Source: Hyphomicrobiales bacterium (GTDB lineage: Bacteria; Pseudomonadota; Alphaproteobacteria; Rhizobiales; Rhizobiaceae). From it: a stretch of 64,000 nt of DNA. The position numbers were made by a program, and so were the translations under genes. The stretch covers positions 68,124 to 132,123 of the forward strand of contig UCKS01000053.1 of assembly GCA_900473045.1 (NCBI GenBank), read 5' to 3'. The notes beneath the pieces are model-generated. The model did no database searches, had not been told where the DNA came from, and saw only the letters and a program-made list of their open reading frames with translations. Of the stretch, positions 40,260 through 56,524 are shown in pieces; the stretch's first letter is position 1; each line of letters opens with the position of its first letter.

Positions 40260-42206
40260 ATGTGTGGATTTGGCGGGTACTTCGGGGATGGCGTCGCGCG
40301 CCATGATGCGCGGCCGCTGCTGCAGCGCATGGTTGCCGCGATCGCACACCGGGGACCGGATGAACAGGGCATCTTTACCGCTCCCGCCGTCGGGCTCGGC
40401 CATGCACGCCTGTCGATCGTCGGTTTGGGCGATGGCCAGCAGCCGATGACGCATTCCAGCGGCGATTTCACCATCGTCTTCAACGGCGAAATTTTCAACT
40501 ATATCGAACTGCGCGAGACGCTGAAGGCGCAGGGCCATGTGTTTCGCACCGGCAGCGACACCGAGGTCATCCTGCACCTTTACGAGCGCATGGGACCAGA
40601 TTGCGTATCCTTGCTCAATGGCGATTTTGCCTTTGCGATCTGGGACGCATCCAGGCAACGCATGGTCATTGCCCGCGACCGTATGGGTGTTCGCCCGCTC
40701 TTTTACACGACAGTCGGAAGAACCCTCTATTTTGCCTCGGAAGTAAAGGCCCTGCTGCAGGTGCCGGGCGTCCGGGCGGAGATGGACCCGTTGGCCCTGG
40801 ATCAGATCTTCACGCTCTGGGCGCCGATTGCACCGCGCACCGCCTTTCGCGACATATTCGAACTTGAGCCAGCTCATCTGCTGATCGCCGAGAAGAATAC
40901 CGTCTCGATCAAGCCTTACTGGCAGCTGCAATATCCCGACATGAGCGAGCCTGCCGCCTATACCGACGAACACGCCGCCGCAGAGGAATTGCGCGCCCTG
41001 CTCACCGATGCGACGCGCATCCGCATGCGGGCCGATGTTCCGGTCGGCTCCTACCTATCCGGCGGCCTCGATTCCTCGATCGTTTCGGCGTTGGCGGCTC
41101 CCATGGCAGCCGGTGGCCTCTCGACCTTTTCCGTCACCTTTGGCAGTGCCGAACATGATGAAAGTGCTTTCCAGCAACAAATGGCCACCGCGCTCGGCAC
41201 GCATCATCACGCGGTTGCCTGCGGTGAAGGCGATATCGCCAGCGCATTTCCCGATGTGATCCGCTTCACCGAGCGCCCGATCCTGCGCACGGCCCCGGCG
41301 CCGCTTTACCAGCTGTCCGGCCTTGTTCGCCAAAAGGGCCTGAAGGTGGTTCTGACCGGCGAAGGTGCCGACGAGGTGTTTGCCGGCTACGATATCTTCA
41401 AGGAGGCCCGCGTTCGCCGTTTCTGCGCCCGCCAGCCCGGTTCACGGATCAGGCCGCATCTGTTTCGCAAGCTTTACGCGTACCTCCCGGGCCTGAAGCA
41501 GCAATCCGCCGAATATCTCGCCGCTTTCTTCGGTGCGGGTGATGACAGCATCGATGACCCGCTTTTTTCGCACCGGCCGCGCCTGCGTGGAACAGCTGCT
41601 GCCAAGCTGTTTTTCTCCGGCGACCTGCGCCAGACGCTCGCAGGCTACGATGCCACTGCAGAAATGCTATCGCTTCTGCCGCAGGACTTCAGCCGCTGGC
41701 ATCCGCTGCATCAGGCGCAATATCTTGAAAGCCGCTTCCTCCTGCCGGGCTACATCCTGTCGAGCCAGGGCGACCGCATGGCCATGGCGCACGGCATCGA
41801 AGGCCGTTTCCCGTTCCTCGACCATCGCCTCGTCGAATTCGCGACACGCCTGCCGCCCGGAATGAAGCTCAAGGGGCTTGTCGAAAAGCACATCCTGCGG
41901 GAAGCCACGAAAGACCTGCTTCCGGACACCATCGGGCGCCGGACCAAGCAGCCTTACCGGGCGCCGGATAGCCAATCCTTCGTCGGCAACAACGAACGGG
42001 ATTACGTCCGCGACGCGTTCAGCGAACGCAGCATCGCCGAAACCGGCCTTTTCAATCCGAAAGCCGTCTCAAAACTTTATGAGAAATGCAGCGAGAAGCC
42101 GGCGTCCGGCTATCGCGACAATGTGGCCTTCGTCGGCATCCTATCAACCCAACTCTGGCAAAAGACATTTTCAGCCACCAAGGCGCTGAGCACCAAGGCG
42201 GCTTGA
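40260..42206 (+). CDS. asnB: Asparagine synthase-like glutamine-dependent amidotransferase
   Basis: A 648-residue class II amidotransferase. It opens MCGFGGYF, with Cys2 as glutaminase nucleophile, and has HRGPDEQG and FNGEIFNYIELRETL in the Ntn domain. The synthetase domain carries the ATP-pyrophosphatase loop SGGLDSS at residues 267-273 and GEGADEVFAGYD. The family amidates an adenylated carboxylate, using ammonia from glutamine. Members next to ACP and acyl ligase genes in polysaccharide or exosortase loci usually modify something other than aspartate. First gene of a four-gene operon; the next gene follows after 21 bases. Confidence 0.88.
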   Translation: MCGFGGYFGDGVARHDARPLLQRMVAAIAHRGPDEQGIFTAPAVGLGHARLSIVGLGDGQQPMTHSSGDFTIVFNGEIFNYIELRETLKAQGHVFRTGSDTEVILHLYERMGPDCVSLLNGDFAFAIWDASRQRMVIARDRMGVRPLFYTTVGRTLYFASEVKALLQVPGVRAEMDPLALDQIFTLWAPIAPRTAFRDIFELEPAHLLIAEKNTVSIKPYWQLQYPDMSEPAAYTDEHAAAEELRALLTDATRIRMRADVPVGSYLSGGLDSSIVSALAAPMAAGGLSTFSVTFGSAEHDESAFQQQMATALGTHHHAVACGEGDIASAFPDVIRFTERPILRTAPAPLYQLSGLVRQKGLKVVLTGEGADEVFAGYDIFKEARVRRFCARQPGSRIRPHLFRKLYAYLPGLKQQSAEYLAAFFGAGDDSIDDPLFSHRPRLRGTAAAKLFFSGDLRQTLAGYDATAEMLSLLPQDFSRWHPLHQAQYLESRFLLPGYILSSQGDRMAMAHGIEGRFPFLDHRLVEFATRLPPGMKLKGLVEKHILREATKDLLPDTIGRRTKQPYRAPDSQSFVGNNERDYVRDAFSERSIAETGLFNPKAVSKLYEKCSEKPASGYRDNVAFVGILSTQLWQKTFSATKALSTKAA

Positions 42207-42227
42207 GCTTTATCTGAGGAAAAACAT

Positions 42228-42506
42228 ATGACCCAACCCATCAAAGACAGCATCAAGGCTTTCATCATCGAGAACTTTCTGTTCGGCGACACGTCCTACG
42301 ATCTTCAGGACGAGGCATCGCTGATCGAAAACGAAGTCATCGATTCCACCGGTGTTCTTGAGCTGGTTGCCTTCATCGAGGACCAGTTCGGTTTCGTCAT
42401 GGCCGACGCGGACATCGTGCCTGCCAATCTCGATTCCGTGTCCCGCATCACGGCCTTCGTTGCAAAGCACGCCGAAGCCCCCGCACTCAACAAGATGTCG
42501 GCCTGA
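42228..42506 (+). CDS. Acyl carrier protein
   Basis: A 92-residue acidic protein with an ACP/PCP fold. The phosphopantetheine attachment serine is Ser40 in the motif DSTG, followed by LELVAFIEDQFGF, as in stand-alone carrier proteins of secondary pathways (housekeeping AcpP has DSLD). It probably carries an acyl or aminoacyl group activated by the downstream AMP-forming ligase. It lies 21 bases after the amidotransferase and 25 bases before the ligase. Confidence 0.88.
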   Translation: MTQPIKDSIKAFIIENFLFGDTSYDLQDEASLIENEVIDSTGVLELVAFIEDQFGFVMADADIVPANLDSVSRITAFVAKHAEAPALNKMSA

Positions 42507-42531
42507 CAGGATCGGCGACGGGAGACAGACG

Positions 42532-44076
42532 ATGCGCGTCGAAGAGTTTCTGCAGAACAGCGCCCGTACAAACGGTGCAAAGACCGCCCTGGTGGCTGGT
42601 GACAAGCGCTTTACCTATGCGGAATTCGACGCGGTAGCCGGACGGCTGGCCTCGTCGCTTGCCGCAGGCGGTATCGTGCGCGGCGACCGCGTCCTCGTCT
42701 TCATGAACAATTGCTGGGAAGCAGCGGTTTCGCTGTTTGCCATCCTGAAGGCCGGCGCCACCGCCGTGCCGGTCAATCCGTCGACCAAGGCCGACAAGCT
42801 CGCCTATATGATTGGTAATTGCGAGGCAGCCGGCATCCTCACACGGGGCAAACTGCTGCCCGTCGTGTCGGAGGCGCGAACAATCGAGCCACGGCCATTG
42901 TTCGTCGCATCGACAAAGTTCAGAGGCGCCAGCCCCGGTAACGGTATCGCCGATTTCGAGTCCTGCCTTGTGGCCACCGAAACCGGTGTCAACCACCACG
43001 GCATCGACATCGATCTGGCGCTCTTGATTTATACGTCGGGCTCGACCGGTCGCCCGAAGGGCGTGATGATGACGCACCGCAATGTCGAAGCCGCCGCCAC
43101 ATCGATCACCACCTATCTGGAAAACACGGCCGACGACATCATCCTGAATGTCCTGCCGCTGGCCTTCGACTATGGCCTTTATCAGTTGCTGATGGCGGTC
43201 AAGCTCGGCGCGACCATCGTTCTGGAAGCCTCGTTCGCCTTCCCACAGGCAATCTTCGACCGTATCCGCGAAGAAAACGTCACCGGCTTCCCGCTGGTGC
43301 CGACCATGGCGGCGATGATCCTGCAGATGCGTGACCTCGAGCCGGACTTTCTGCCGAGCCTGCGCTACATCACCAATACCGCAGCCGCCCTGCCACCCGC
43401 CCATATCGCCCGCCTGCGCGAACTGTTTCCACGCGCGACGATCTATTCGATGTACGGGCTGACCGAATGCAAGCGCTGTACCTACCTGCCGCCCGCCGAA
43501 CTCGATCGCCGCCCCGGCTCCGTGGGCATCGCCATTCCCAATACCGAAGCCTTTGTTGTCGATGACGACGGCCAGCGCGTGGCGCCCGGCGTCCCTGGCG
43601 AACTGGTGATCCGTGGCCCGCATGTGATGCAGGGTTACTGGCGCAACGTCGAGGCGACCAGCAAGATGCTGCGCCCCGGACCCAACCCTTGGGAAAGGGT
43701 ACTCTACACCGGTGACCTCTTCCGCACGGACGAGGAAGGGTTCCTCTACTTCGTCGGCCGCAAGGACGACATCATCAAGACCCGTGGCGAGAAAGTCGCG
43801 CCGAAGGAGGTCGAGACGGTGCTGCATGCCCATCCCGGCATTGCCGAGGCCGTCGTCATCGGCCTGCCCGATCCTATCCTTGGCCAGGCAATCGCCGCCC
43901 TTGTCGTTCTCTCCGATCCGGCTCTGACGGAGCGCGAGATCATCAAACATTGCGCCGCCCATCTGGAAGACTTCATGGTTCCGCGTCTCATCGAGTTTCG
44001 CGCTGAGCTGCCGAAGACGGATACCGGCAAGGTCAGCCGCAGGCTCGCCGCAGAAACACTGGAGGCTGCCGAATGA
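42532..44076 (+). CDS. AMP-forming acyl-CoA/acyl-ACP ligase
   Basis: The 514-residue adenylating enzyme has the core motif YTSGSTGRPKG (167-177), YGLTECKRC (~305), the TGDLFRTDEEGFLYFVGRKDD stretch (~400-420) and the catalytic lysine region PKTDTGKVSRR near the C-terminus. It activates a carboxylic acid to an adenylate and transfers it to a thiol; the adjacent ACP is the obvious acceptor. The ATG at 42532 follows GGGAGACAGAC; its stop overlaps the start of the next gene (ATGA). The acid substrate cannot be inferred. Confidence 0.88.
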   Translation: MRVEEFLQNSARTNGAKTALVAGDKRFTYAEFDAVAGRLASSLAAGGIVRGDRVLVFMNNCWEAAVSLFAILKAGATAVPVNPSTKADKLAYMIGNCEAAGILTRGKLLPVVSEARTIEPRPLFVASTKFRGASPGNGIADFESCLVATETGVNHHGIDIDLALLIYTSGSTGRPKGVMMTHRNVEAAATSITTYLENTADDIILNVLPLAFDYGLYQLLMAVKLGATIVLEASFAFPQAIFDRIREENVTGFPLVPTMAAMILQMRDLEPDFLPSLRYITNTAAALPPAHIARLRELFPRATIYSMYGLTECKRCTYLPPAELDRRPGSVGIAIPNTEAFVVDDDGQRVAPGVPGELVIRGPHVMQGYWRNVEATSKMLRPGPNPWERVLYTGDLFRTDEEGFLYFVGRKDDIIKTRGEKVAPKEVETVLHAHPGIAEAVVIGLPDPILGQAIAALVVLSDPALTEREIIKHCAAHLEDFMVPRLIEFRAELPKTDTGKVSRRLAAETLEAAE

Positions 44077-45086
44077 ATATGCACAAAGCCGAAACCACCG
44101 CCGCATTCTCGGCAGCAACGCTGGCAATCGACCCGGCCAAGGAAACCGACAAGATCGTCGCGGCGCTGCGCGAGCAACTGCGCGGTCCCTTGCGCAAGCG
44201 CGGTCTCGTTCTTGGTCTTTCCGGTGGCATCGACAGCAGTGTCTGTGCAGCTCTTGCCGCCCGTGCGGCCGGTGCAAAGAACGTCTACGCTCTGTTCATG
44301 CCGGAAAACGATTCCGACCCGGAAAGCCTGCGTCTTGGCCACACCATCGCCGAAACCTTCGGCATCGATAGTGTCGTCGAGGACATCGGCCCGTCGCTGC
44401 AGGCCATGGGCTGCTACGATCGCCGCGACGCCTTCATCCGCGAACTGGTTCCGGACTATACCAGCGCCTGGGCCTCGAAGATCGTCATCTCCAGTGCACT
44501 GGAAGGCGATGGCTACAACATTTCCTACCTCGTCGTGCAGGACCCCGACGGCAAGCAGACAAAGCTGCGCATGACGCCATCGGTTTATCTCGGCATCGTC
44601 GCCGCAACCAACATGAAGCAGCGCACGCGCAAGCAGCTCGAATATTTCCATGCCGACCGCCTGAACTTTGCCGTTATCGGCACGCCGAACCGGCTGGAAT
44701 ACGATCAGGGCTTCTTCGTCAAGAACGGCGATGGCGCAGCCGACGTCAAGCCGATCGCACATCTCTACAAGACCCAGGTCTATCAACTGGCCGCCTATCT
44801 TGGCGTGCCTGAAGAGATCTGCAAGCGCCCGCCGACGACCGATACCTATTCGCTACAGCAGACGCAGGAAGAGTTCTACTTCTCCTTGCCCTACGACCGG
44901 ATGGATCTCTGCCTCTACGGCCTCAACAACAACCTGCCCGCAGAAACCGTTGCTGCTGCCGCCGGGTTGACCGCAGATCAGATGTCCCGCGTCTGGGCCG
45001 ATATCGCTGCCAAGCGCAAGGCGACACGTTATCTGCACCTTGCGCCGCAACTGGTCGAACCAGTCAGCGAAATCGCACCGAAGTAA
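44073..45086 (+). CDS. nadE: NAD synthetase-family protein (ammonia-dependent type)
   Basis: A 337-residue ATP-pyrophosphatase with SGGIDSS at residues 50-56 and the NAD synthetase stretches NFAVIGTPNRLEYDQGFFVKNGDGAADVKPIAHLYKTQVY and KRPPTTD-type ends. It lacks the N-terminal nitrilase-like glutaminase domain of the long NadE that rhizobia normally use. NAD synthetase amidates the adenylated carboxylate of nicotinic acid adenine dinucleotide. Translational coupling to the ligase suggests this copy may amidate a pathway-specific carboxylate, but a second NAD synthetase is also possible. Confidence 0.8.
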   Translation: MNMHKAETTAAFSAATLAIDPAKETDKIVAALREQLRGPLRKRGLVLGLSGGIDSSVCAALAARAAGAKNVYALFMPENDSDPESLRLGHTIAETFGIDSVVEDIGPSLQAMGCYDRRDAFIRELVPDYTSAWASKIVISSALEGDGYNISYLVVQDPDGKQTKLRMTPSVYLGIVAATNMKQRTRKQLEYFHADRLNFAVIGTPNRLEYDQGFFVKNGDGAADVKPIAHLYKTQVYQLAAYLGVPEEICKRPPTTDTYSLQQTQEEFYFSLPYDRMDLCLYGLNNNLPAETVAAAAGLTADQMSRVWADIAAKRKATRYLHLAPQLVEPVSEIAPK

Positions 45087-45118: not shown

Positions 45119-46234
45119 TCAGTCGATATCATCCGCCGCAAGCCGGCTCCAGTGTTCACCGGCCAGCCCGTTGAAAAATCCTTCGCCATTCTGAAAAGCC
45201 TGCAGGATCTCCGGATCTTTGCTGTGAATGACGCTTGAGGCGATGTGGGTGAAGGAAATGCGCCGGCCGAGCATGGCTTCGAGCAGTGCCGGCTGTGTGC
45301 GGCCGCGCAACGCAACGAGACCCCGCGCTGCGGCATGCGCAATCAGGCAATCGATAACCTGGCGTTCCTGGCCGGGGATAGACAGGATCTGCAGGACCCG
45401 GCCGATGCGGCCCGCATTTCCATGATAGACGAAGGCACCGACGACGGCACCAGTCCGCGCCTCGACCTTGCAGAACACGGCTTCGCCTTCCGACCTCGCA
45501 AACTTTGCATCCCGCAGGATATAGGTCAGCTGAGCACCTGGAAAATCAGGCCGGAGCCGGTATCGCGCCGTCAGCCGGCTAAAAAGTGCGGCAAATTCTT
45601 CGACAGACACGTCGCTCGTCTTGAAGCTCCCCTGCCCATTCCATGCCGCCGGAATGCCGGACCAGCGCAACTCGTCAGCGCGCATGCGCCGGAGCAGGAT
45701 ATCATCGGTCTTGCGCGCCACTGGCCGCAAAAAACGGGCCGCACCGATGCGGCTCATGCCAAGTTCGGTAAAAAAGCCGGCCGGCCGGATGATGCGAAGC
45801 CAGTCGAGACTGTATTGCGGCAAGGCCAGCCCGCGCAGCTTCATCCACATCGAGGCGGACACCTCACTCGCCGTCTCGCTGAACGACAGGTCCTGGGGGC
45901 CGGCGAGAAATGCCTTGAGCAACCGCGCGCCGGCCAGCGGATCGGCGTCCCGGCCCTCGACCATCAACGAACCGCAAATCGCTGCCCGCAGTTGACGGCC
46001 TTCGAATGTCATCGGTAGTCCAGTGGCACCGACAAAACCGGTCATCTCGCCGCCGTCGTTCACATGAACAAGCGACGTGATTCCAATGTCCTGACCGGGC
46101 GCATCAAGATAGAATGACTGGAGATAGTCCGCCAAGCCCTTGCTTGCCGGAGCCTTCGGGTCGCGGAAGACGCGTTGAAACATCCCCGCCAGGGCCGGGA
46201 TATCGGAGCTTTGCAACGCGCGGATTTCACTCAT
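45119..46234 (-). CDS. GNAT-like acyltransferase family protein, paralogue of 48665-49837
   Basis: The 371-residue protein begins IRALQSSDIPALAGMFQRVF, the start of a GNAT fold, and continues with a second GNAT-like half. Its C-terminus GEGFFNGLAGEHWSRLAADD resembles GDGFYAGGLASESWSRLLHD of the protein at 48665-49837, and both share LVHVND/LVHLNE and the GFVGATGLPM/ILAMPVEF region, so they are paralogues. It follows the PrmC-like methyltransferase by 53 bases on the minus strand and is convergent with nadE. A role in acyl transfer onto a polysaccharide or lipid intermediate fits the neighbourhood; substrate unknown. Confidence 0.7.
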   Translation of the reverse strand: MSEIRALQSSDIPALAGMFQRVFRDPKAPASKGLADYLQSFYLDAPGQDIGITSLVHVNDGGEMTGFVGATGLPMTFEGRQLRAAICGSLMVEGRDADPLAGARLLKAFLAGPQDLSFSETASEVSASMWMKLRGLALPQYSLDWLRIIRPAGFFTELGMSRIGAARFLRPVARKTDDILLRRMRADELRWSGIPAAWNGQGSFKTSDVSVEEFAALFSRLTARYRLRPDFPGAQLTYILRDAKFARSEGEAVFCKVEARTGAVVGAFVYHGNAGRIGRVLQILSIPGQERQVIDCLIAHAAARGLVALRGRTQPALLEAMLGRRISFTHIASSVIHSKDPEILQAFQNGEGFFNGLAGEHWSRLAADDID

Positions 46235-46287: not shown

Positions 46288-47001
46288 TCACGCATCGGAC
46301 CATTTCTTCTGGACGAATGCGACACGGGGAAGACCGGCCGCATCTTCGGCAAAGGTTGCAGGCTCATAGCCGCGCGCCCGCGCAAGCAGTGCGGCGGCCT
46401 GCCGGTGCTGCCCTTCACCGAATTCGAAAGCCAACCAGCCACCGGGCTTCAGAAACGCAAGGGCATCGCGGACCAGACGCTGATGGATTGAAATCCCATA
46501 GGGGCCACCATCGAAGGCCTCGCGCGGCTCGTTGTCGAGCAAATGGGCGCTGTCGCCCTCCAGACGTTGCGTGGAGATATAGGGAGGATTGCAAACGATC
46601 AGATCAATCTGGCCCTCGAGACCCTTGTCCGAAAGCCCAGCGAACAGGTCGCCCTGGATCACGCGCAGGCGATCTGAAAATCCGCAACGCTCAGTATTTC
46701 GCGTCGCAAGGCTCACAGTCTCGTCTGTCAGATCGCATGCCCAGAGCTTGGCTGTAGGGATGTGCGTGGCGATGGCCAGCGCCAGATTGCCGGAGCCGCA
46801 GCACATGTCGATGACCAATGGATTTTCGATCCGTCCTTCGATCAACCCCAGCGACGTGCGGCCCAGAAGCTCGGTTTCTTCTCTTGGGACGAGTACGCCG
46901 GGAGCCAGTTCGAGATCGACCCCCATGAAACGATGCAGCGGCATTCCGATCCGGTCCTCAACACGTGCCTTATCCATCGCCAGCGCAACTCCAACATGCA
47001 A
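46288..47001 (-). CDS. PrmC/HemK-like SAM-dependent methyltransferase, short form
   Basis: A class I methyltransferase of up to 237 residues. The SAM motif VIDMCCGSGNLALAIA is at about 63-78 and the catalytic NPPYIS at about 138-143, the signature of amide-nitrogen methyltransferases (PrmC, PrmB). It keeps the LVPREETELL segment before the SAM domain but lacks the helical N-terminal domain by which PrmC grips release factors, so the target is probably different. The first possible start is TTG at 47001; an ATG at 46977 may be the true one. It is divergent from the flippase gene and leads a two-gene operon with the GNAT-like gene. Confidence 0.78.
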   Translation of the reverse strand: MHVGVALAMDKARVEDRIGMPLHRFMGVDLELAPGVLVPREETELLGRTSLGLIEGRIENPLVIDMCCGSGNLALAIATHIPTAKLWACDLTDETVSLATRNTERCGFSDRLRVIQGDLFAGLSDKGLEGQIDLIVCNPPYISTQRLEGDSAHLLDNEPREAFDGGPYGISIHQRLVRDALAFLKPGGWLAFEFGEGQHRQAAALLARARGYEPATFAEDAAGLPRVAFVQKKWSDA

Positions 47002-47279
47002 TCGCCAAAACCTACTGCAATCAATAGCGTAGCGAAGTAAACATAAACTGAAATCAATTCAGCAATGGCAAGCGTTAACCTCAATATGAATTCTCTGATG
47101 CCGCAAAGACCGAATCGCGGTGAAATTAACGACCTTTGCAGCGATTGAACATATTGTCGGACAACCAGAATTAAATGAAACAGACACAACTGCAACTTTG
47201 AGAGTTCCGCCAGTTTGCGGTGGTTGTTACCACCACACTCAACCGGAACCACATTGCCTGCAAGAGGAGAAAACCAAGG

Positions 47280-48581
47280 GTGACAGCGGACGCTTTTCAT
47301 GCGCCCAAGCAGCGAACGCTGATGTCGATGGTCATGTCGTACATGGCCTCCGGCGGCAGCCTCATCTTGAGTTCCGCTGCTCAACTGCTCACCTTCGCTA
47401 TTCTGGCCCGATCGCTCGGCGTCAACGAGTTCAGCGTCTTCGTCGCCGTGACCGCAGTTTGCAACATTGCCGTCCATCTCTGCGGACTTGGCGGCATGGA
47501 GTGCCTGGTGCGGCGTGTCGCACGCGATCCCGCGATGTATCCGGTCATGCTCGGTCACAACATCATCCTGACGGCCATCAGCGGCGTGGCGCTGGTATTG
47601 CTCGGCGTGGCTATATTGCCGTTTTTCTTCGCGCTCTCTCCCGATCCATCGCTCAATCTCCTCGATATGACGCTGATGCTGATCACCAACATCATTTTCG
47701 TGCGCATTATCGTCCTGACCGAACAGATTTTCATCGGTCACTCCAATTTCGTCTCGGCCAACATGACCGTGGTCGGGTTCGCGATTGCACGCACCTTAGC
47801 CGCAGCCCTTGCCTGCCTTGCATTTGGTGTCTCGACTGTTGCCGAATGGGCGGTCTGGCAGTTTGCCTGCCACGTCCTGGTCGCGGCCTTTTGCATCCGG
47901 GCATTGGCAAAGCTAGGCCGGCCCAAGTACGAGATCGTCAGCGAAGAACTGCCGCTCGGCATGTATTTCAGCATACCCTTCATTCTGCGCGCCATCCGCC
48001 AGAACGCCGACCTGCTAACGCTCAGCCTCGTCACCACAGCCGAAATCGTCGCAAGCTATAGTGTCGCGCGCCGGATTCTCGAAAGCAGCTACCTTTCCGT
48101 CGAGGCCTTGAACCGGCTGATGTATCCGGGCTCAGCGCGCGCGGCGGCCAACGGGCTGCACAAGGCGATGGACCGCATCCGCAAGGTGCTCCTTGCCGCT
48201 ACCGGCATCAGCCTGGCAGCAGCCACAACCGTATTTCTCCTGGCACCGCTGCTGCCCTACCTGTTCGGCCACGAATATTTGACGCTCGTATCCTTCGTGC
48301 GCAGCCTCTGCTGGGTCGTGGTACCGCTCGGCATGTGGTCGATTGCCGTCGAAGCGCTGGGGGCCGCCGGATATCATGCGGCGCGTGCCAGCGTCATGGG
48401 CCTCGGCAGCATTCTGGGCGCAGGCCTTGCAGCCTGGGCAACTTGGTACGCCCCGCCGATGGGAACAGTCGTTTCCTTCTACGTCATCGAGATTGCAATG
48501 GTGGCCGTCGCCTGGGCGGTCTTCTTCCGGTACGCGAAGAAGGATGAAGTAAAAGATGCTGCCGGAGCGGCATTTTCATAA
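47280..48581 (+). CDS. Polysaccharide flippase, Wzx/MATE-like
   Basis: A membrane protein of 433 residues with about 12 predicted hydrophobic helices, starting MASGGSLILSSAAQLLTFAILARSLGVNEFSVFVAV, the usual opening of the PST family. It should move lipid-linked repeat units to the periplasmic face of the inner membrane. The GTG at 47280 with GAGGAG upstream is a likely start; an ATG at 47322 is an alternative. It opens the rightward polysaccharide operon, 278 bases from the divergent methyltransferase gene. Confidence 0.83.
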   Translation: MTADAFHAPKQRTLMSMVMSYMASGGSLILSSAAQLLTFAILARSLGVNEFSVFVAVTAVCNIAVHLCGLGGMECLVRRVARDPAMYPVMLGHNIILTAISGVALVLLGVAILPFFFALSPDPSLNLLDMTLMLITNIIFVRIIVLTEQIFIGHSNFVSANMTVVGFAIARTLAAALACLAFGVSTVAEWAVWQFACHVLVAAFCIRALAKLGRPKYEIVSEELPLGMYFSIPFILRAIRQNADLLTLSLVTTAEIVASYSVARRILESSYLSVEALNRLMYPGSARAAANGLHKAMDRIRKVLLAATGISLAAATTVFLLAPLLPYLFGHEYLTLVSFVRSLCWVVVPLGMWSIAVEALGAAGYHAARASVMGLGSILGAGLAAWATWYAPPMGTVVSFYVIEIAMVAVAWAVFFRYAKKDEVKDAAGAAFS

Positions 48582-48664: not shown

Positions 48665-49837
48665 ATGACACCCGCTGCGGAAAACGCTTTGAGACAACCC
48701 ATGGAATCCTCCGCCCCCTCTGCCGAAGAGGGACGGCCGAGGCCGCATACGGGCGTGGTTCGTGCCATGGAGCGGTCCGACCTGCCGGCCGTCGCGGACC
48801 TGTTCACCCGAACATTCCGCAAGAACAATCAGAAGACCGACGGCCAACTGGCCGGCTATCTCGAAACGGTTTTCTTCAGCAGCCCGCTCTACACGCCGGA
48901 TGTCGGCAGCCTCGTTCATCTCAACGAGACATCGACGATCGATAGCGCAATTCTGGCAATGCCGGTGGAATTCATCGTTCATGGCCGGCCGGTCACCGCC
49001 AGAATACTGTGCGCCTTCATGGCCGAAGGAAAGTCCGGCGCGGCCGGGGCGGCCCGTCTTGCCCGCATGCTGCGCGCGGCACGCCAGGATTTCTGCTTTA
49101 CCGACAACGCATCACCGGTCAGCGCCGACCACTGGGTTGCCGGCGGCGGACTGGTCTTGCCGGTTCAAAGCCTTGAATGGCATCGCACGTTCCGCCCGGC
49201 CGCAACCGCGCTCGACATCGCCCGCCGCAAGGTGAAGCTGCTGGCCAGGCTGCCGCTGCAGGGCCTTGCCCGAACCGCTGACCGTTTCGTGCGCCGCTCA
49301 CGGACTTCGTTTGCTGCCAATCCGCAGGACGGCATCGCGAGCGCGCCGATTTCACTGCCGCAATTCATGGAGCAGGCGCAGCTGATGATGCAGCGTTTCT
49401 CCGTCCATCCGGTCTTTTCCCAGGCGGAATTCGACTGGCTGATCGCTGCTGCAAAGCTGAACACCTCGCTTGGCGAGCTTCAATGCCGCAGCATCATGGA
49501 TGCACATGGCAAGGTGATCGGCTGTTATCTGTATTTTGGTGCGGACGGCCGCAATGCCGTGGTCATGAACGTCTTCTGCTACGAGCGCCAAGAGGCTCTC
49601 GTCGTCGCCCAGCTTTTTGCCGATCTCGACAACCTTGGATATGCAAGCGCCCAAGGAATGGCGCAGCCCTTTCTGACACAGGCGGTGCTGCGTCAACGCC
49701 ATCTGGTGCACAAGCATACCGGTTACTTCTGCCTGGTCACACGCCATGCCGACCTCAAGGAAGCGGCCATCGGCGATGGGTTCTATGCCGGCGGCCTTGC
49801 CTCGGAAAGCTGGAGCCGATTGCTTCACGATTTCTAG
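48665..49837 (+). CDS. GNAT-like acyltransferase family protein, paralogue of 45119-46234
   Basis: A 390-residue protein. After a polar N-terminal tail of about 25 residues comes VVRAMERSDLPAVADLFTRTFRKN, a GNAT start, and later NAVVMNVFCYERQEALVVAQLFADLDNLGYASAQG, a second acyltransferase-like region. The end GDGFYAGGLASESWSRLLHDF is shared with the protein at 45119-46234. It lies between the flippase and Wzz genes on the same strand, which ties the family to polysaccharide assembly. It may add an acyl or aminoacyl group to a sugar. Confidence 0.7.
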   Translation: MTPAAENALRQPMESSAPSAEEGRPRPHTGVVRAMERSDLPAVADLFTRTFRKNNQKTDGQLAGYLETVFFSSPLYTPDVGSLVHLNETSTIDSAILAMPVEFIVHGRPVTARILCAFMAEGKSGAAGAARLARMLRAARQDFCFTDNASPVSADHWVAGGGLVLPVQSLEWHRTFRPAATALDIARRKVKLLARLPLQGLARTADRFVRRSRTSFAANPQDGIASAPISLPQFMEQAQLMMQRFSVHPVFSQAEFDWLIAAAKLNTSLGELQCRSIMDAHGKVIGCYLYFGADGRNAVVMNVFCYERQEALVVAQLFADLDNLGYASAQGMAQPFLTQAVLRQRHLVHKHTGYFCLVTRHADLKEAAIGDGFYAGGLASESWSRLLHDF

Positions 49838-49973
49838 TCTCGAATACCCTGTATGCGAGTGCTGACACCCGGCATTTTAACGTCCGGTTTACCATAAGCG
49901 GCTATTCATGATGTTCACCTAGAGCACGGCTATAGGCTGTATGGGCTTGAAGCACGCTGCGGAGACAGAACGG

Positions 49974-51602
49974 ATGTACACGCCGAAGGAGCCGGATCTG
50001 CGGCAAGCGATAAAGCGCCCGGAAACGGTTGCACGCTCGCGCCCACGTCCCGGCTCCCTGCTCGATCTGGTTTCCGACGACGACGAGGATTTCCGCCCCG
50101 CTCATCAGGCCTCCACGGCCAATGAGGCGGCACGCCCGACGTTTACGCCAAACCGGCAACAGGCGGCCATCGCCGAACAGATCAACGCCCCTTCAACGCC
50201 CGTCAAAGGGCAGATCATGGGATATGTCGCTGCCCTTCGCGCGATCGGACCCGATGATGTGTTCCAGTGGCTGAAGGATGGCCTGCTCTGGATTATCGGG
50301 GCAACAGTGCTGTGTGTGGCCGCCGCCTTGATCTATGCGATGGTCGCTCAGCCGCGCTACACAGTCTATACCGACCTCGTCATCGATCCCGCCAATCTTC
50401 AGGTGGTCAGCGACGACGTGTTCGGCAACAGCCCGTTGCGCGATTCTCAACTGCTCGAAGTCGAAAGCAAGCTGCGGGTCCTCACGTCACGCAATGTCCT
50501 GACCCGCGTTATCGACAGCATGAACCTGACGCAGGACGAGGAATTCGTGAAGCCGGGCCTGCTTGATGGCCTCAAGCAGCTCTTTTCGAGCGCCACCAAG
50601 GACGAGACCCAGCAGGCCAAGATGCTGAGCGCGATCCGCGCACTGGCCGAGCGCGTCGAAGCACGGCGCGAAGAGCGCTCATTCGTCGTTTCTCTCGGCG
50701 TCTATACCGATAGCCCGGAGAAGTCGGTGGCACTGTCCGGCGCCATCGTCGATGCCTTCGAAAAAGAAATCTTCGAATCCGCCGCCCAAAGTGCCGGCAG
50801 GGTTGCAACGACGCTCAACGATCGCCTGGAAGAGCTTCGGCGCAACGTCACAAACGCTGAGGCAAAGGTGGAAGAATTCAAGCGCCAGAAGGGGCTGCAA
50901 TCCTCCAATGGCGAACTGGTCAGCACACGCCTCGTTGCCGAGCTGAACACGCAGGTCCTGACGGCACAACAGCGCTATATCGAGTTGGAAACGCGATACA
51001 AGCAGATGCAGCAGGCAATCTCGACCGGCCAGACCGGCACCGCATCGGTTTTCGTTTCCCCAACGATGACGGCGCTGCGGCAGGATTACGATCAGGCCTT
51101 GCTACAGCTCAATTCCCTGAAACTGACCTACGGCGCTCGGCACCCGCGAATCACAGCTGCGAATTCCGACCTGTCGACCCTGAAGGCATCGATCAACAAT
51201 GAAGCAAGGCGGATCGCCGATGCGGCGTTGGGAGACATGAACCAGGCCAAGTCGGCGCTCGCCGCCCTTCAGGGCAAGGCGAATGAACAGCAGACAACCG
51301 TCTACATGGACAACGATTCGCAGGTCGAGCTGCGGGATCTCGAGCGCGACGCGCGCGCCAAGGCAGCCCTTTACGAAACGCATCTGACCCGCTCCCAGCA
51401 GATTACCGAACAGCAGCAGATCAACACTTCCAATATCCGCGTGATCTCGCGCGCGATGCCGCCGCAATCGCGCAGCTGGCCGCCGCGAACTCTGATCCTG
51501 CTTGCCCTCGGCGCCTTTGCTGGTATCGCGATCGGCATCGGGCTTGCCCTGTCGTTCGGCATTCTTCGTGCTTTGCGCCAACACCAGCCGCGCACGGGCT
51601 GA
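49974..51602 (+). CDS. Polysaccharide chain-length protein, Wzz/GumC-like, without kinase domain
   Basis: A polysaccharide co-polymerase of 542 residues. A polar cytoplasmic N-terminal tail of about 95 residues precedes TM1 (~105-128, LLWIIGATVLCVAAALIYAMV), then the Wzz domain, long coiled coils (~280-310 and 405-455) and TM2 (~510-535, LILLALGAFAGIAIGIGLALSFGI). No Walker motifs or tyrosine-kinase domain follow, so the BY-kinase partner is absent or elsewhere. The ATG at 49974 has GGAG nine bases upstream; an ATG at 49941 gives 11 more residues. Confidence 0.85.
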   Translation: MYTPKEPDLRQAIKRPETVARSRPRPGSLLDLVSDDDEDFRPAHQASTANEAARPTFTPNRQQAAIAEQINAPSTPVKGQIMGYVAALRAIGPDDVFQWLKDGLLWIIGATVLCVAAALIYAMVAQPRYTVYTDLVIDPANLQVVSDDVFGNSPLRDSQLLEVESKLRVLTSRNVLTRVIDSMNLTQDEEFVKPGLLDGLKQLFSSATKDETQQAKMLSAIRALAERVEARREERSFVVSLGVYTDSPEKSVALSGAIVDAFEKEIFESAAQSAGRVATTLNDRLEELRRNVTNAEAKVEEFKRQKGLQSSNGELVSTRLVAELNTQVLTAQQRYIELETRYKQMQQAISTGQTGTASVFVSPTMTALRQDYDQALLQLNSLKLTYGARHPRITAANSDLSTLKASINNEARRIADAALGDMNQAKSALAALQGKANEQQTTVYMDNDSQVELRDLERDARAKAALYETHLTRSQQITEQQQINTSNIRVISRAMPPQSRSWPPRTLILLALGAFAGIAIGIGLALSFGILRALRQHQPRTG

Positions 51603-51603
51603 C

Positions 51604-52944
51604 ATGAACACCGCGTCGCCGGACAATCATGCGCTGCCGGATGCGGCCGGGATCGGCGGCATCGGCGCCGGGCCAGTCCTGTTCATGGCGATCTTCCTGT
51701 TCTTCTGGATTTCGCTGACACCATTCGTCGATCTGACCGGCGAAGGCATTCTCGACCCGTCAGCAGGCAATTCGAACCGCCTGAACCAGATCGTCTCGCT
51801 CAGCCTGTTTGCGTGCACGCTTTGCTACGGCCTGCTCCATCCCTTGCGGGCGACAATCCTCCAGCCCCGCGCGCTCCTATTGCCGATGTTCGGCTGGTTC
51901 CTGTTCGTCTCGCTGATTTCCAACCACCCGATGCTCGGCATCAAGGCGGTGATCCTGACCGTCATGGCGACCATCAATGCCAGCATCTACCTGCTGATGC
52001 CGTCGTCGGAGAAGCAATTCGCCAAGATGCTGGCGATCGGCACGCTGATCACGCTGGCAACCGCCTATTACGGTGTCGTCTTCAAACCGGAAGTGTCGAT
52101 CCATCAGCTGTCTGAACTGCGTGAACCGATGAATGCCGGCATGTGGCGTGGTCATTTCCCGCATAAGAACAGTGCCGCCGCCGCTATGGTGATCGCCGCC
52201 TTCTTCGGCCTTTTCGTGATGAATGCCTGGTCGCGGCTGGCCGGCATCGCCATCGTCGTTCTGTCGGTCGTCTTCCTCGTCCACACCGGCGGAAAAACCT
52301 CAAGCGCCATGCTGCCCGGCATCCTGATCCTTGCCTTTGTGTTTGAGCGGCTGCGGTTTCTGCGTATTCCCATCGCCGTTGGCGGCGTCGCGCTGTTCAA
52401 TCTGTTTGCTGTCGGCTCTGCAGTCTTCCGGCCGCTCGGCGACTTCATCACGTCGCTCGGGATCGACGCGACGTTCACCAACAGAGCCGACATCTGGCGA
52501 TTTGCCTTCACAGCTCTGGCCGAAAATCCGGTCACCGGCTACGGCATCAAGGCATTTTGGCAGACGCAGGAACTGGTTTATAGCGGCGGTGCTGTCGAAA
52601 CGTGGGCGGTCGCTGCTGCCAACGGGCATAATTCCTACCTCGATATCGCACTGATGACCGGCATCCCCGGTCTCTTCATGACCTTGCTCTGGGTTCTCTT
52701 CCTGCCGTTGCGCGATATCTCACGCCTGCCTCCAGCCAACGAGCACTCGGATCTGACGCGGCTTTTCATCCGGGTCTGGCTCTATGTGATTTTCAATGCC
52801 GGCCTGGAAAGTCTGTTTTTCGAAGGCGGCAATCTGCTCTGGTTCACTTTCCTCTATTGCCTGTATGGCCTGCGGTTCCAGTCGTCGGCGACGCTGACCG
52901 GGAAACGCTTTGCTCCTGCAGAAAGGCCAGAGGCCCATGCCTGA
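51604..52944 (+). CDS. O-antigen ligase/polymerase family protein (Wzy/WaaL-like)
   Basis: The 446-residue membrane protein has about 11-12 hydrophobic helices and the long periplasmic loop typical of Wzy_C proteins, with RADIWRFAFTALAENPVTGYGIKAFW and NGHNSYLDIALMTGIPGLFMTLLW, in which the Arg and the HNSYL histidine are the usual functional residues. It should polymerise repeat units from the Wzx flippase. The ATG at 51604 is one base after the Wzz stop. Confidence 0.85.
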   Translation: MNTASPDNHALPDAAGIGGIGAGPVLFMAIFLFFWISLTPFVDLTGEGILDPSAGNSNRLNQIVSLSLFACTLCYGLLHPLRATILQPRALLLPMFGWFLFVSLISNHPMLGIKAVILTVMATINASIYLLMPSSEKQFAKMLAIGTLITLATAYYGVVFKPEVSIHQLSELREPMNAGMWRGHFPHKNSAAAAMVIAAFFGLFVMNAWSRLAGIAIVVLSVVFLVHTGGKTSSAMLPGILILAFVFERLRFLRIPIAVGGVALFNLFAVGSAVFRPLGDFITSLGIDATFTNRADIWRFAFTALAENPVTGYGIKAFWQTQELVYSGGAVETWAVAAANGHNSYLDIALMTGIPGLFMTLLWVLFLPLRDISRLPPANEHSDLTRLFIRVWLYVIFNAGLESLFFEGGNLLWFTFLYCLYGLRFQSSATLTGKRFAPAERPEAHA

Positions 52945-53713
52945 CATCGTCAACACGCTCATCAATATCGCCGACCGGTTGAACAACCGCATGATCTGGA
53001 AATTCGCCAGAACACGGCGGCCGATCCCGACAGAGCGTCCGATCATCTCCATCACGTTCGACGATGTGCCCGATACCGCCTTGACCAACGGCGCGGCCAT
53101 TCTGGAGAAGCATGGCGTGCGCGGAACATTCTATATCGCCGGCGGTCTGGAAGGGCGCGTTGAGCCGGATCGACGCCTGATTTCGGCCGACGGCTGTCGT
53201 GAGCTGTTTGCCCGAGGACACGAAATCGGCTGCCATACGTTTTCCCACCGCAAGGTCGGCACCCTCGGCAGCCGGACATTTGCCGATGATCTCGATCGCA
53301 ACGAAGCTTTTCTGACCGGTGCCGGGATTTCTCGCCGACCGACCAATTTCGCCTTCCCGTACAACGCCGCAACCCCACGGCTTCGGCACATTCTGAAACA
53401 ACGCTACACGACATGCCGGGCTGCGGGCGAAGCCATCAACCGGGGAACAGTCGACCCCTTCATGCTGAAAGCCGTCGAAATCCGCCAGCCGGAAGACCAC
53501 GCGTTGGGTCTGACAAGATGGATCGACGATGTCGCGGCCAATCCGGGCTGGCTGATCTTCTTCACCCACGATATCGCCGCCACCCCGACAGCCTATGGCT
53601 GCCGGCCGGAAACACTGGAGCGGCTGGTTTCGCACGCCCGCGAACGCCAATGCGATATTCTCCCCGTTTGCGAGGCGCTGGATCGCTTCGGCTGGAAAGA
53701 GGCCCACCCTTGA
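52937..53713 (+). CDS. Polysaccharide deacetylase (NodB homology domain)
   Basis: A 258-residue carbohydrate esterase 4-type protein. The motif SITFDDVPD has the catalytic and metal Asp, HTFSH is the HxxxH metal motif, and NFAFPYN is the third motif; a late TRWIDDVAANPGWLIFFTHDI stretch carries the last His. It removes N- or O-acetyl groups from a polysaccharide. There is no signal peptide, so it may act on cytoplasmic lipid-linked intermediates. The ATG at 52937 overlaps the end of the polymerase gene by 8 bases. Confidence 0.88.
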   Translation: MPDIVNTLINIADRLNNRMIWKFARTRRPIPTERPIISITFDDVPDTALTNGAAILEKHGVRGTFYIAGGLEGRVEPDRRLISADGCRELFARGHEIGCHTFSHRKVGTLGSRTFADDLDRNEAFLTGAGISRRPTNFAFPYNAATPRLRHILKQRYTTCRAAGEAINRGTVDPFMLKAVEIRQPEDHALGLTRWIDDVAANPGWLIFFTHDIAATPTAYGCRPETLERLVSHARERQCDILPVCEALDRFGWKEAHP

Positions 53714-54996
53714 CCATCGTTAGCCAGGCAAACGGCAAGCCGACATTGCTGAAAATCAACAACTACTTCTACCGCAGGGGCGGCGCTGAGGCTGTGTTTC
53801 TCGATCACATAGCCATGTTCGAACAGGCCGGCTGGGATGTCGTTCCCTTCGCCATGCAGCATGATTTGAACCCGCCCAGCCCATGGTCCGATTACTTCGT
53901 TTCGGAGATCGAATACGGCCATGAAACCGGCACGCTCAACAAGATCAAGCAGGTCGCGAAAATCATCTACTCCTTCGAGGCGCAGCGCAATATCAAGCGG
54001 CTGATCGAGCGGGTCAATCCAGCGATCGCCCACGCGCATAACGTCTACCATCACCTGTCGCCAGCGATCTTTTCGACGTTGAAATCGGCTGGCATTCCAA
54101 CCGTCATGACCGTTCACGACCTGAAGCTCGCCTGTCCCTCCTACAAGATGCTGCGGGATGCCAAGGTCTGCGAGGACTGCAAGGGGGGCCGCATCCACAA
54201 TGTCCTCGTACATCGCTGCATCAAGGGATCGACCGTGCTCAGCACCGTCGTTCTGGCCGAGACCGCGCTGCATCGCAGCCTTGGCCTGTATCGCAACAAT
54301 CTCGACCGCCTCGTCGTCCCCAGCCGGTTCTACATCGACAAGCTCGTGGAGTGGGGCTGGCCACGCGATAAGATGGTCTACATTCCGAATTTCGTCGATA
54401 TCGACGCCTTCGATACGGGTTGGACCGAGGGCGACTATTTCGCTTTTGCCGGCCGTCTCGCACCTGAAAAGGGGATCGACACCCTGATCCGCGCTGCCGC
54501 CCTGTCGAAGCAGAAGCTGGTGATTGCCGGAACCGGACCGGAGGAAGCCGCGCTGAAAGCGCTGGCGCAGACGCTAGAAGCAGATGTCGTGTTCGCCGGC
54601 TATCTATCCGGAACGGCACTGCATCGGCTGATCGGTGAAGCAAAAGCCCTCGTGCTGCCGTCCGAGTGGTACGAGAATGCGCCGATCAGCGTGCTCGAAG
54701 CCTATGCACTGGAAACGCCGGTCATTGGTGCCAACATTGGCGGCATTCCGGAGATGGTCCTCGACGGCGAAACCGGCTTGTTGGCCATGCCTGGGAATGT
54801 GGAGGATTTGGCAACCGCCCTGACCGCGATGGCTTCACGCAAGCCGCAAGAGCGGCGGGAAAAGGGCCGGAAGGCACGGCAATGGATCGCCGTCGAGTTC
54901 TCCTCGTCCGCTTATCTGCGTCGAACGACCGAACTCTATGCCAGCCTCGGCGCATCTTTGCCGATGGCCACACGCTCGATCGCGCACTCAAATTGA
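53710..54996 (+). CDS. Glycosyltransferase family 4/1 protein
   Basis: A 428-residue GT-B glycosyltransferase. The N-terminal domain begins LLKINNYFYRRGGAEAVFLDH, and the C-terminal nucleotide-sugar domain has FAGRLAPEKGIDTLIRAA (~250) and the E-x7-E motif in YENAPISVLEAYALETPVIG (~320-340). A cysteine cluster (LACPSYKMLRDAKVCEDCKGG, ~140-160) is seen in a subgroup of these enzymes. The start is TTG at 53710, overlapping the deacetylase stop as TTGA; the frame has no nearby ATG at the conserved start. Confidence 0.85.
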   Translation: MTIVSQANGKPTLLKINNYFYRRGGAEAVFLDHIAMFEQAGWDVVPFAMQHDLNPPSPWSDYFVSEIEYGHETGTLNKIKQVAKIIYSFEAQRNIKRLIERVNPAIAHAHNVYHHLSPAIFSTLKSAGIPTVMTVHDLKLACPSYKMLRDAKVCEDCKGGRIHNVLVHRCIKGSTVLSTVVLAETALHRSLGLYRNNLDRLVVPSRFYIDKLVEWGWPRDKMVYIPNFVDIDAFDTGWTEGDYFAFAGRLAPEKGIDTLIRAAALSKQKLVIAGTGPEEAALKALAQTLEADVVFAGYLSGTALHRLIGEAKALVLPSEWYENAPISVLEAYALETPVIGANIGGIPEMVLDGETGLLAMPGNVEDLATALTAMASRKPQERREKGRKARQWIAVEFSSSAYLRRTTELYASLGASLPMATRSIAHSN

Positions 54997-55117
54997 TACA
55001 CTTTCCGAAATCACAACTCATAATTTCATCCGGTCCGTACAATTTTAACGGTTATATTTCCCTCATTTCAGCCCTTCAAAGTTAAACCATATCCCAAGGA
55101 ACCAGGGATTTGGAACG

Positions 55118-56473
55118 ATGGGCCACGAGCCGCGTACTTTCAGAACGGCAGACTCTCAACCTGAACATACAGGTATCGACGGCAGCCTGCGCAATATCCG
55201 TGAAGGCCTGCGAAAAGCGTCTGAGAATGCACCTGCGGAAATACGGTCCATCGCAGTCGTCCCGCTTGCGGAGCGCGTAGCGATCGTGACTGCCCCTCCG
55301 TTGGGCGAAACGTCTCTTTTCCCATCCGCTGAAACACTCAAGAAACCCGCTGCTCGCCCCCGGGTGATGATGCTGGGTAGCCGGGGCATCCCCAGTGTCC
55401 AGGGCGGTGTCGAAAAGCATATCGAGATGATCGGCACCGAACTCGTCAAGATGGGCTGGGACGTCGACGTTATCGGCCGACGCCAATATCTGCCAAGCGC
55501 ATTGGAAACTGTCTGGAACGGTATTCGGGTCATTCCGCTCTGGGCGCCGAAGAGGATGGCCCTGGAGGCTATCGGGCATAGCATCGCCGGCGTCTTCTAT
55601 GCCGCGCGGCAACGGCCCGATGTTCTGCATATCCATGCTGTCGGCCCAGCCTTGGTCGCGCCGCTTGCCCGCCTCTTCGGGCTGAAGGTCATCATCACCC
55701 ATCATGGCTACGACTACGAGCGCCAGAAGTGGGGCCGGTTTGCCAAGCGCATGCTCAAGACGGGCGAGGCATTCGGGATGTACACTTCCAATGGTCGTAT
55801 CGCGATTTCGCAGGAAATCGTTCGCGCCATGCGGGAAACGTATGGCGTTGCCGTCGATTTCGTGCCGAACGGCGTATCGGTACACCCCAAGACCACCTCC
55901 ACTGAAACCCTCAAGAGTTTCGGACTGACCCCACGCCGATACATCGTCATGATGGCCCGCCTTGTTCCCGAAAAGCGCCAGCATGACCTGATCCTTGCTT
56001 TTGCCAAGGCAAACAGGCCGGAAAAACTGGTCATCGTCGGTGGTGCAGATCATGAAACCGAGTATTCGGCTTACGTGAAGGCGCTGGCAGCCGAAACGCC
56101 TTCGGTGGTCATGACGGGTTTCCAGACCGGTGGCGCACTTGCGGAACTGTACAGCAACGCTGCCCTGTTCGTGCTTCCGTCAAGCCATGAAGGCATGCCG
56201 ATCGCGCTTTTGGAAGCCCTCAGTTATGGCCTGCCTGTTCTTGCCAGCGATATCGTCGCCAATCGTGAACTCAAGCTCGCGCCCAACGATTACTTTCCCA
56301 TGGGCGATGTCAATGCGCTGGCTGCGGCTCTCGGGCGCAAACTGTCCAGCCCATTCGATGAGGACGGGACGGACCAGATGACGAGCCAGATCCAGACGGA
56401 CTACAGCTGGAAAAAGATCAGCGAGCGGACGGCGGAGGTGTATCGATCCGTCCTTGGCAGGCGGCCCCGCTGA
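55118..56473 (+). CDS. Glycosyltransferase family 4 protein with N-terminal extension
   Basis: The 451-residue protein has an unusual polar N-terminal region of about 78 residues before the GT-B fold, which starts PRVMMLGSRGIPSVQGGVEKHIEMI. Donor-site motifs are MARLVPEKRQHDLILAFAKA (~290) and SHEGMPIALLEALSYGLPVLASDI (~360-383). The G-G-V-E-K segment is typical of GT4 enzymes that add a first or early sugar in exopolysaccharide units. It begins 121 bases after the preceding gene, the largest gap in the cluster, so an internal promoter is possible. Confidence 0.85.
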   Translation: MGHEPRTFRTADSQPEHTGIDGSLRNIREGLRKASENAPAEIRSIAVVPLAERVAIVTAPPLGETSLFPSAETLKKPAARPRVMMLGSRGIPSVQGGVEKHIEMIGTELVKMGWDVDVIGRRQYLPSALETVWNGIRVIPLWAPKRMALEAIGHSIAGVFYAARQRPDVLHIHAVGPALVAPLARLFGLKVIITHHGYDYERQKWGRFAKRMLKTGEAFGMYTSNGRIAISQEIVRAMRETYGVAVDFVPNGVSVHPKTTSTETLKSFGLTPRRYIVMMARLVPEKRQHDLILAFAKANRPEKLVIVGGADHETEYSAYVKALAAETPSVVMTGFQTGGALAELYSNAALFVLPSSHEGMPIALLEALSYGLPVLASDIVANRELKLAPNDYFPMGDVNALAAALGRKLSSPFDEDGTDQMTSQIQTDYSWKKISERTAEVYRSVLGRRPR

Positions 56474-56524
56474 CGACAGCGATCCATCTCGGCATCAACC
56501 AAATTTCAAATCATCGGCAATATC

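Follow-up and report, generated by a model that had tools for sequence, protein, structure and literature searches.

A 64,000-nt stretch of DNA from a Hyphomicrobiales bacterium (contig UCKS01000053.1; hereafter the window) carries, on its + strand at positions 40260-45086, four genes encoding an AsnB-type amidotransferase, an acyl carrier protein (ACP), an AMP-forming (adenosine monophosphate-forming) ligase and a NadE-like protein. Although they resemble everyday components of nitrogen, fatty-acid and nicotinamide adenine dinucleotide (NAD) metabolism, these genes occur as a group in about a hundred of the bacterial genomes examined, and probably build a small amide-bearing group on a carrier for delivery to a surface sugar or another amine. 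We favor, with modest confidence, the interpretation that the four genes make up the core of a conserved biosynthetic cassette working as a miniature carrier-protein assembly line. Judging by gene content, its NadE paralogue is an extra copy and not the cell's only NadE. If the assembly-line interpretation is right, genes now annotated as parts of NAD, asparagine and fatty-acid metabolism are members of one uncharacterised pathway, which would extend to model symbionts, Sinorhizobium meliloti 1021 being one that carries the cassette.

The four genes are closely packed, with 21 nt between the AsnB and ACP genes, 25 nt between the ACP and ligase genes, and an ATGA overlap joining the ligase gene to that of the NadE-like protein. 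These frames and spacings agree with a first-pass annotation made from the sequence alone, which had described a four-gene operon of the same families, and profile scans back the family assignments:

40260-42206, + strand: AsnB-type glutamine amidotransferase (ATGTGTGG, Cys2), with the glutaminase half and the PP-loop synthetase half intact.
42228-42506, + strand: stand-alone acyl/aminoacyl carrier protein of 92 residues, with Ser40 in IDSTG and weak ACP-family matches.
42532-44076, + strand: AMP-forming acyl/aminoacyl-ACP ligase of the ANL superfamily (PF00501 and PF13193), TIGR03098-like.
44073-45086, + strand: NadE-like N-type ATP (adenosine triphosphate) pyrophosphatase amide synthetase of 337 residues, NF002048 subfamily.

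The amidotransferase matches PF00733 and exceeds the cut-off of TIGR01536 (514.4 bits versus 267.1), which, together with its Cys2 glutaminase and synthetase PP-loop, places it in the AsnB family. Its best PDB match is a hydroxyamidotransferase (7ylz), and the alignment contains no counterpart of the E. coli AsnB stretch TTIRAS, which we take to be the aspartate site. The ACP is too diverged for a Pfam match at 1e-3 and matches NCBIfam ACP families weakly (best NF052616, 52.7 bits versus a cut-off of 130). In the annotated records examined, the four genes carry separate generic names only, the NadE-like protein being called NAD(+) synthase, and no description of the gene set was found among the matches listed from the open-licence PMC full-text literature, as judged by titles and the openings of abstracts.

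Examining 199 genomes of the same family, own genome included, revealed a NadE-like gene (E<=1e-30) in 36, and the ligase (E<=1e-150) in exactly these 36 and no other. The ligase scan was cut at 1e-70, which gave 44/199, the stricter count being read from the same table; up to seven candidates were scored per genome for the ligase and 5-10 in the NadE scans. In a phylum scan 15/398 genomes were positive, and in a class-wide sample the cassette occurred at E<=1e-60 in 3/385 genomes, one of them the window's own, so that its distribution is patchy.

Gene content was compared across 128 further loci, the window's own being excluded: 36 from 35 other family genomes (L036-L071), 12 from the phylum scan (L086-L097) and 80 from a named genome collection (L098-L177), with up to 20 kb of surrounding DNA for the first two sets and up to 19 kb for the third. 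The loci are not independent, as the same genome was sometimes reached by two routes and some species are near-identical; they form 110 clusters at 97% NadE identity. All four genes were present, with a median span of 4.8 kb, in 121/128 loci (104/110 clusters). Of the seven incomplete loci, two are cut by contig ends (L144, L153), four are without a local AsnB (L067, L068, L173 and L177; it was found elsewhere in the genomes of the first two, and not looked for in the others) and one, in Devosia crocina (L151, ~8911-8998), has a ligase shrunk to a 27-residue remnant between the ACP and nadE genes, its other cassette genes remaining open.

At least four gene orders occur among the loci, including NadE-AsnB-ligase-ACP (L089-L093), AsnB-ligase-ACP-NadE (L094) and ACP-ligase-AsnB-NadE (Azospirillum); by kinship assignment, L089-L091 belong to the window's own family and L094-L097 to another class of the phylum. 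A gene set that stays constant while its order changes is the usual sign of shared function, and as judged from this pattern the four genes form a functional unit. The first-pass annotation had proposed a search for co-occurrence of the four families in other genomes and had staked its reading on a conserved link of the ligase and ACP to the amidotransferase; the co-occurrence and the link were both found. Chance clustering was rejected on the same counts.

Catalytic residues are conserved throughout the cassette. In AsnB, Cys2 is kept in 117/122 loci and the LSGGLDSS positions in 117-120/122, and the G-E-G-x-D-E positions are invariant in all 122; the DST motif bearing the phosphopantetheine serine is present in every ACP with a match (127/127), as are the catalytic Lys500 and Arg315 in the ligase (127/127 each). 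Position 213 of the ligase pocket, by contrast with these, varies (D in 79, G in 21, T in 15, N in 7 and others in 5 of 127 loci). By a mapping of our own, we equate this position with the Asp that anchors the alpha-amine in nonribosomal peptide synthetases (NRPSs). Because it varies, the acid loaded by the ligase probably differs between lineages, and a universal alpha-amino-acid ligase was rejected.

Arg315 was also considered, and rejected, as a carboxylate clamp specific to the cassette: it recurs in related ligases outside it (L184-L194, though not L195-L197), and its presence is therefore not used here to argue for a dicarboxylic substrate. Among these outside ligases, L184 and L185 are second copies (57% identity) in two genomes (G028, G127), with no ACP, AsnB or NadE within the 20 kb examined, and L186-L194 are 36-42% identical; beside L189 lies a gene that, judged from its sequence start, resembles a pyridoxal phosphate (PLP) decarboxylase, near a glycosyltransferase match, possibly marking a sister cassette. 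In DltA/DltC and in NRPS loading modules, an adenylating enzyme loads a carrier protein. The ligase, whose best PDB matches are NRPS proteins, would likewise load a stand-alone carrier; the cassette differs from those systems in that the Asp anchor is retained in only 79/127 loci and in having amide-forming partners.

The four members named by the first-pass annotation all stand, but the cassette is larger than its list: a GNAT acyltransferase or a thioesterase belongs to it as well, and some loci add a PrmC-like methyltransferase. Two of these additional genes follow the operon in the window:

45119-46234, - strand: tandem-GNAT acyltransferase, the probable off-loader, as suggested by its AlphaFold2 model, Foldseek and co-occurrence.
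46288-47001, - strand: HemK/PrmC-like N-methyltransferase with an NPPY motif (TIGR00536), start codon uncertain.

The GNAT gene has no family match at 1e-3 in Pfam or NCBIfam, but its AlphaFold2 model (pLDDT, the model's confidence score, 88) aligns over nearly its full length, at the level of the fold, with GNAT and N-myristoyltransferase structures, which points to two GNAT domains. This cassette GNAT (E<=1e-60) was found in 34/36 cassette genomes and in 0/163 other family genomes, and it directly precedes asnB on the same strand in 41/128 loci. In the two cassette genomes without it (G054, G106), a thioesterase gene lies right behind nadE, with PF00975 matched in L061 and in the relative in L160. 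Across the 128 loci, the cassette GNAT occurs in 96 (excluding two loci that hold only a GNAT paralogue) and the thioesterase in six (L061, L064, L088, L160, L161, L167), with both in none. This off-loader gene swap is what would be expected if the group to be released hung on the carrier as a thioester, from which either enzyme would free it.

The methyltransferase exceeds the cut-off of the HemK family (TIGR00536, 140.8 bits versus 115.5) and lies under that of the PrmC equivalog (TIGR03534, 172.7 versus 199.1, the match starting at profile position 54). It is present in 44/128 loci, with NPPY in 44/44, and occurs only together with Asp213 ligases (44/79 versus 0/48 loci; 27/48 versus 0/30 clusters at 90%), the other 35 Asp213 loci having no methyltransferase in the DNA examined. 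In the family sample it was detected at E<=1e-40 in 13/199 genomes, all 13 with the cassette; by this restriction, and by its sub-threshold equivalog score, it is set apart from PrmC/HemK proper, with which it shares the family and the NPPY motif. PrmC methylates the side-chain amide of glutamine, and a PrmC-like enzyme would make a striking companion for two amide-forming enzymes.

The window cassette abuts a Wzx/Wzy polysaccharide cluster that contains a second GNAT and a deacetylase:

47220-48581, + strand: Wzx-type flippase (PF01943), first gene of the cluster, which is the candidate acceptor pathway; start uncertain.
48665-49837, + strand: second, diverged tandem-GNAT paralogue, 29-32% identical to the cassette GNAT.
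49941-51602, + strand: Wzz/GNVR polysaccharide co-polymerase (PF02706, PF13807).
51502-52944, + strand: Wzy/O-antigen-ligase-type polymerase (PF04932), start uncertain.
52910-53713, + strand: polysaccharide deacetylase (PF01522), which could expose an amine for acylation by the GNAT.
53413-57589, + strand: three glycosyltransferase genes (53413-54996, start uncertain; 55118-56473; 56525-57589; PF00534, PF13439, PF00535).

The link to polysaccharide genes recurs elsewhere. In two genomes (G047, G140), asnB is absent from the cassette. A copy with 71-72% identity lies instead on a different contig, in front of the wzx of the same polysaccharide cluster, which it overlaps by an ATGA in both cases (L224, L225). 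In Azospirillum thermophilum, a sugar transferase, polymerase, glycosyltransferases, deacetylase, ACP, ligase, AsnB, NadE and GNAT follow one another on one strand, and in Shinella zoogloeoides the cassette adjoins exopolysaccharide (EPS) transport and glycosyltransferase genes.

For this gene set we infer the following pathway, based on the families and their intact catalytic residues. The ligase would adenylate a carboxylic or amino acid and load it onto the phosphopantetheine arm of the ACP. AsnB, using glutamine-derived ammonia, and the NadE paralogue, using ATP and ammonia, would convert carboxylates, either on the carrier-bound group or on a partner molecule, into amides, and in part of the Asp213-ligase lineages the HemK/PrmC-like enzyme would methylate the product. 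The acyl group would then leave the ACP via the tandem GNAT onto an amine, or via the thioesterase in other lineages. Here and in several other genomes, the group would likely be accepted by an amino sugar belonging to the neighboring Wzx/Wzy polysaccharide, once the deacetylase has uncovered its amine. The enzyme set fits the route to an amidated acyl or aminoacyl moiety put forward by the first-pass annotation, and its four genes behave as the unit it supposed, while the acid and the amide themselves are still matters of inference. Its further suggestion of a polysaccharide decoration gains from the asnB/wzx overlaps and from the position of the Azospirillum cassette after glycosyltransferases and a deacetylase, but loses generality from a neighborhood that is optional. 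Polysaccharide is likely the acceptor in several lineages, not universally.

Several observations weigh against the assembly-line interpretation. Neither the cassette GNAT nor the thioesterase was seen in the DNA examined at 26/128 loci, including all nine of L089-L097; the Azospirillum GNAT belongs to a different subfamily (12.8 bits to the profile); and at E<=1e-20 the GNAT search reached 40/199 genomes, among them six without the cassette, whose relatives are 25-30% identical. The GNAT, methyltransferase and ligase-type associations follow descent, such that their counts overstate independence. A polysaccharide-type gene was detected in 43/128 loci and a deacetylase in 24, which are undercounts because only the window's own families served as probes, and in six loci (L108, L148, L149, L150, L162, L175) no polysaccharide gene was noticed nearby, as judged from translated ORF (open reading frame) starts with no family scan. 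Finally, the order of enzyme action, and whether AsnB and the NadE-like protein share a substrate, are unconstrained, and the substrates of the cassette enzymes are predictions.

The six loci where the cassette seemingly lies amid unrelated genes would fit a different product. The cassette could make a free N-acyl amide or amide metabolite, such as a signal, osmolyte or surfactant, which the GNAT would pass to an amino acid or the thioesterase would set free, the polysaccharide neighbors being incidental; we regard this as possible, though somewhat unlikely. Thioesterase off-loading, at six loci, would yield a free acid product, and PMC7293339 reports N-acyl amino acid synthases that use acyl-ACP and are encoded near PEP-CTERM/exosortase genes. 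Incidental neighbors, however, sit poorly with the overlaps of asnB and wzx in G047 and G140, and with the Azospirillum and Shinella cassettes lying in or beside EPS genes, a deacetylase preceding the cassette in Azospirillum.

A further system close to this one is that of the Caulobacter holdfast. Its tandem GNAT protein HfsK might, as the authors suggest (PMC5362036), acylate amines that the deacetylase HfsH has exposed, but they leave its catalytic role open. The cassette GNAT, assigned at the level of the fold, resembles HfsK in being a tandem GNAT acyltransferase linked to EPS genes, and differs in its co-occurrence with ACP, ligase and amide-forming enzymes, from which its donor could come. 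Tandem-GNAT enzymes that modify EPS, HfsK among them, might draw acyl groups from a cassette of this sort. The gene set, with both ways of off-loading and the methylating form, provides concrete objects for testing.

The role of the NadE-like protein can also be read otherwise. The window's genome holds further NadEs in a 588-residue frame and in a 280-residue frame, the latter being the size of the ammonia-dependent type, and a further NadE was found in 48/48 cassette genomes examined (42 by near full-length match; G014, G106, G117, G187, G360 and G473 by partial match in 695-826-residue frames). The first-pass annotation had asked whether a full-length NadE exists elsewhere in the genome, where these two further NadEs were found, and had named a short NadE that is the sole and essential NAD synthetase as part of what would refute its reading; that possibility was rejected. 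It had also called the short form unusual for lacking a glutaminase domain, which is incorrect as a distinction, the 280-residue NadE being present in the same genome. What sets the protein apart is that it forms a separate subfamily, is ~50 residues longer in mid-protein and has fixed partners. In a tree, cassette NadEs were split from 22 other NadEs (21 from frames of at least 550 residues, one from the 280-residue frame) by a fully supported branch (100/99), which is the only split we use, some branches being at the program's limit. Relatives of the subfamily (E<=1e-3) were seen in 554/589 pattern-matched stretches among the matches listed from a one-genome-per-species collection, where two patterns may match one gene.

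Across 29 sequences the PP-loop SGGxDS (S50, G51, G52, D54, S55) is invariant, as are R184, K217, D224 and K314. With T204, E209, K233 and T255, these last four presumably correspond to ligands of nicotinic acid adenine dinucleotide (NaAD) and ATP in NH3-dependent NadE, going by the annotation of E. coli NadE. NadE loops are replaced in a family-specific manner: 'QTQEEFYF' is one such replacement, an acidic loop is changed, and N218 mostly takes the place of the aromatic residue that follows Lys217 in 2e18, 3fiu and 5wp0. Compared with 2e18 or 3fiu, the middle of the protein is ~50 residues longer (the extra part at ~113-170), with three predicted beta strands. The AlphaFold2 model (pLDDT 86, low at 215-219) retrieved NAD synthetases first by Foldseek, the second match being a Francisella enzyme titled nicotinamide mononucleotide (NMN) synthetase.

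Most of the presumed NaAD/ATP ligands are nevertheless kept, the His preceding K314 being lost, and this counts against our interpretation in that NAD or NMN synthesis is possible; the residue pattern may allow a nicotinate nucleotide as substrate. The protein could then be a genuine NAD or NMN synthetase, recruited so that the pathway receives NAD(H) or a nicotinamide nucleotide, and formation of the acyl group would fall to the remaining three enzymes alone. It exceeds the curated cut-offs of NF002048 (528.6 bits versus 313) and TIGR00552 (150.5 versus 63.65), and it is better conserved than any other member (median identity to the window of 72%, versus 66% for the ligase, 64% for AsnB and 59% for the ACP, with 46% for the GNAT), as expected for a fixed nucleotide substrate. 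Given another NadE in all 48 genomes, no oxidoreductase seen among the recurrent members, and the replaced loops and longer middle, we consider such a role quite unlikely. The protein shares the fold and the PP-loop amide synthesis machinery of NH3-dependent NadE and of the Francisella enzyme (3fiu), but forms a separate clade, is tied to ACP, ligase and AsnB, and always stands beside another NadE. We take 3fiu, in agreement with its entry title, as a precedent for a changed NadE substrate.

It is very improbable that the operon is a variant of the XrtA/PEP-CTERM EPS cassette in which NadE has replaced other members for the same EPS modification: TIGR03098 is the best NCBIfam match of the ligase and TIGR03108 the second-best match of AsnB, and the L096 cassette lies behind XrtA-type EPS genes (TIGR03006 over its cut-off) in a genome with no detected exosortase, yet the scores are far under the cut-offs (471.2 versus 592.35 and 452.1 versus 816.9 bits, respectively), and the exosortase family PF09721 matched in just 3/48 cassette genomes and gave no match (E<=0.001) in the window's own, as the first-pass annotation had supposed, leading us to reject membership. 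The two systems share related ligase and amidotransferase families, a carrier protein and a link to EPS loci; the NadE paralogue and the GNAT or thioesterase distinguish the cassette described here. The XrtA cassette, for its part, presumably has a PLP decarboxylase and hydrolases.

A more specific form of the assembly-line interpretation, which is speculative and on balance unlikely, would have the NAD synthetase paralogue leave NAD metabolism altogether. In lineages with Asp213 and the methyltransferase, a dicarboxylic amino acid such as glutamate would be loaded on the ACP, amidated, N-methylated (giving N5-methylglutaminyl-ACP) and passed by the GNAT to a holdfast-like polysaccharide, on one of its amino sugars; the acid would vary with the ligase type while the NadE step stayed fixed.

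Further observations concern the placement of individual cassettes. On pSymB of S. meliloti (L219), the cassette lies near minCDE, and the GNAT, methyltransferase and wzx genes are found ~10 kb from it, close to a gene annotated as encoding an EAL domain. One genome (G059) has two cassette copies on two contigs (L063, L071), the second with a partial NadE match (43%) and an internal stop. Rhizobial-type cassettes also occur in records labelled Bacillus subtilis (L149), an Armatimonadetes metagenome-assembled genome (L176) and a Roseateles sp. XES5 plasmid (NZ_CP084753), which would reflect wrong labels, contamination of the assemblies or transfer. The window's polysaccharide cluster ends with an 807-residue frame (57325-59748, + strand) that has no Pfam match and has relatives near the cassette in L043, L044, L133, L136, L157 and other loci.

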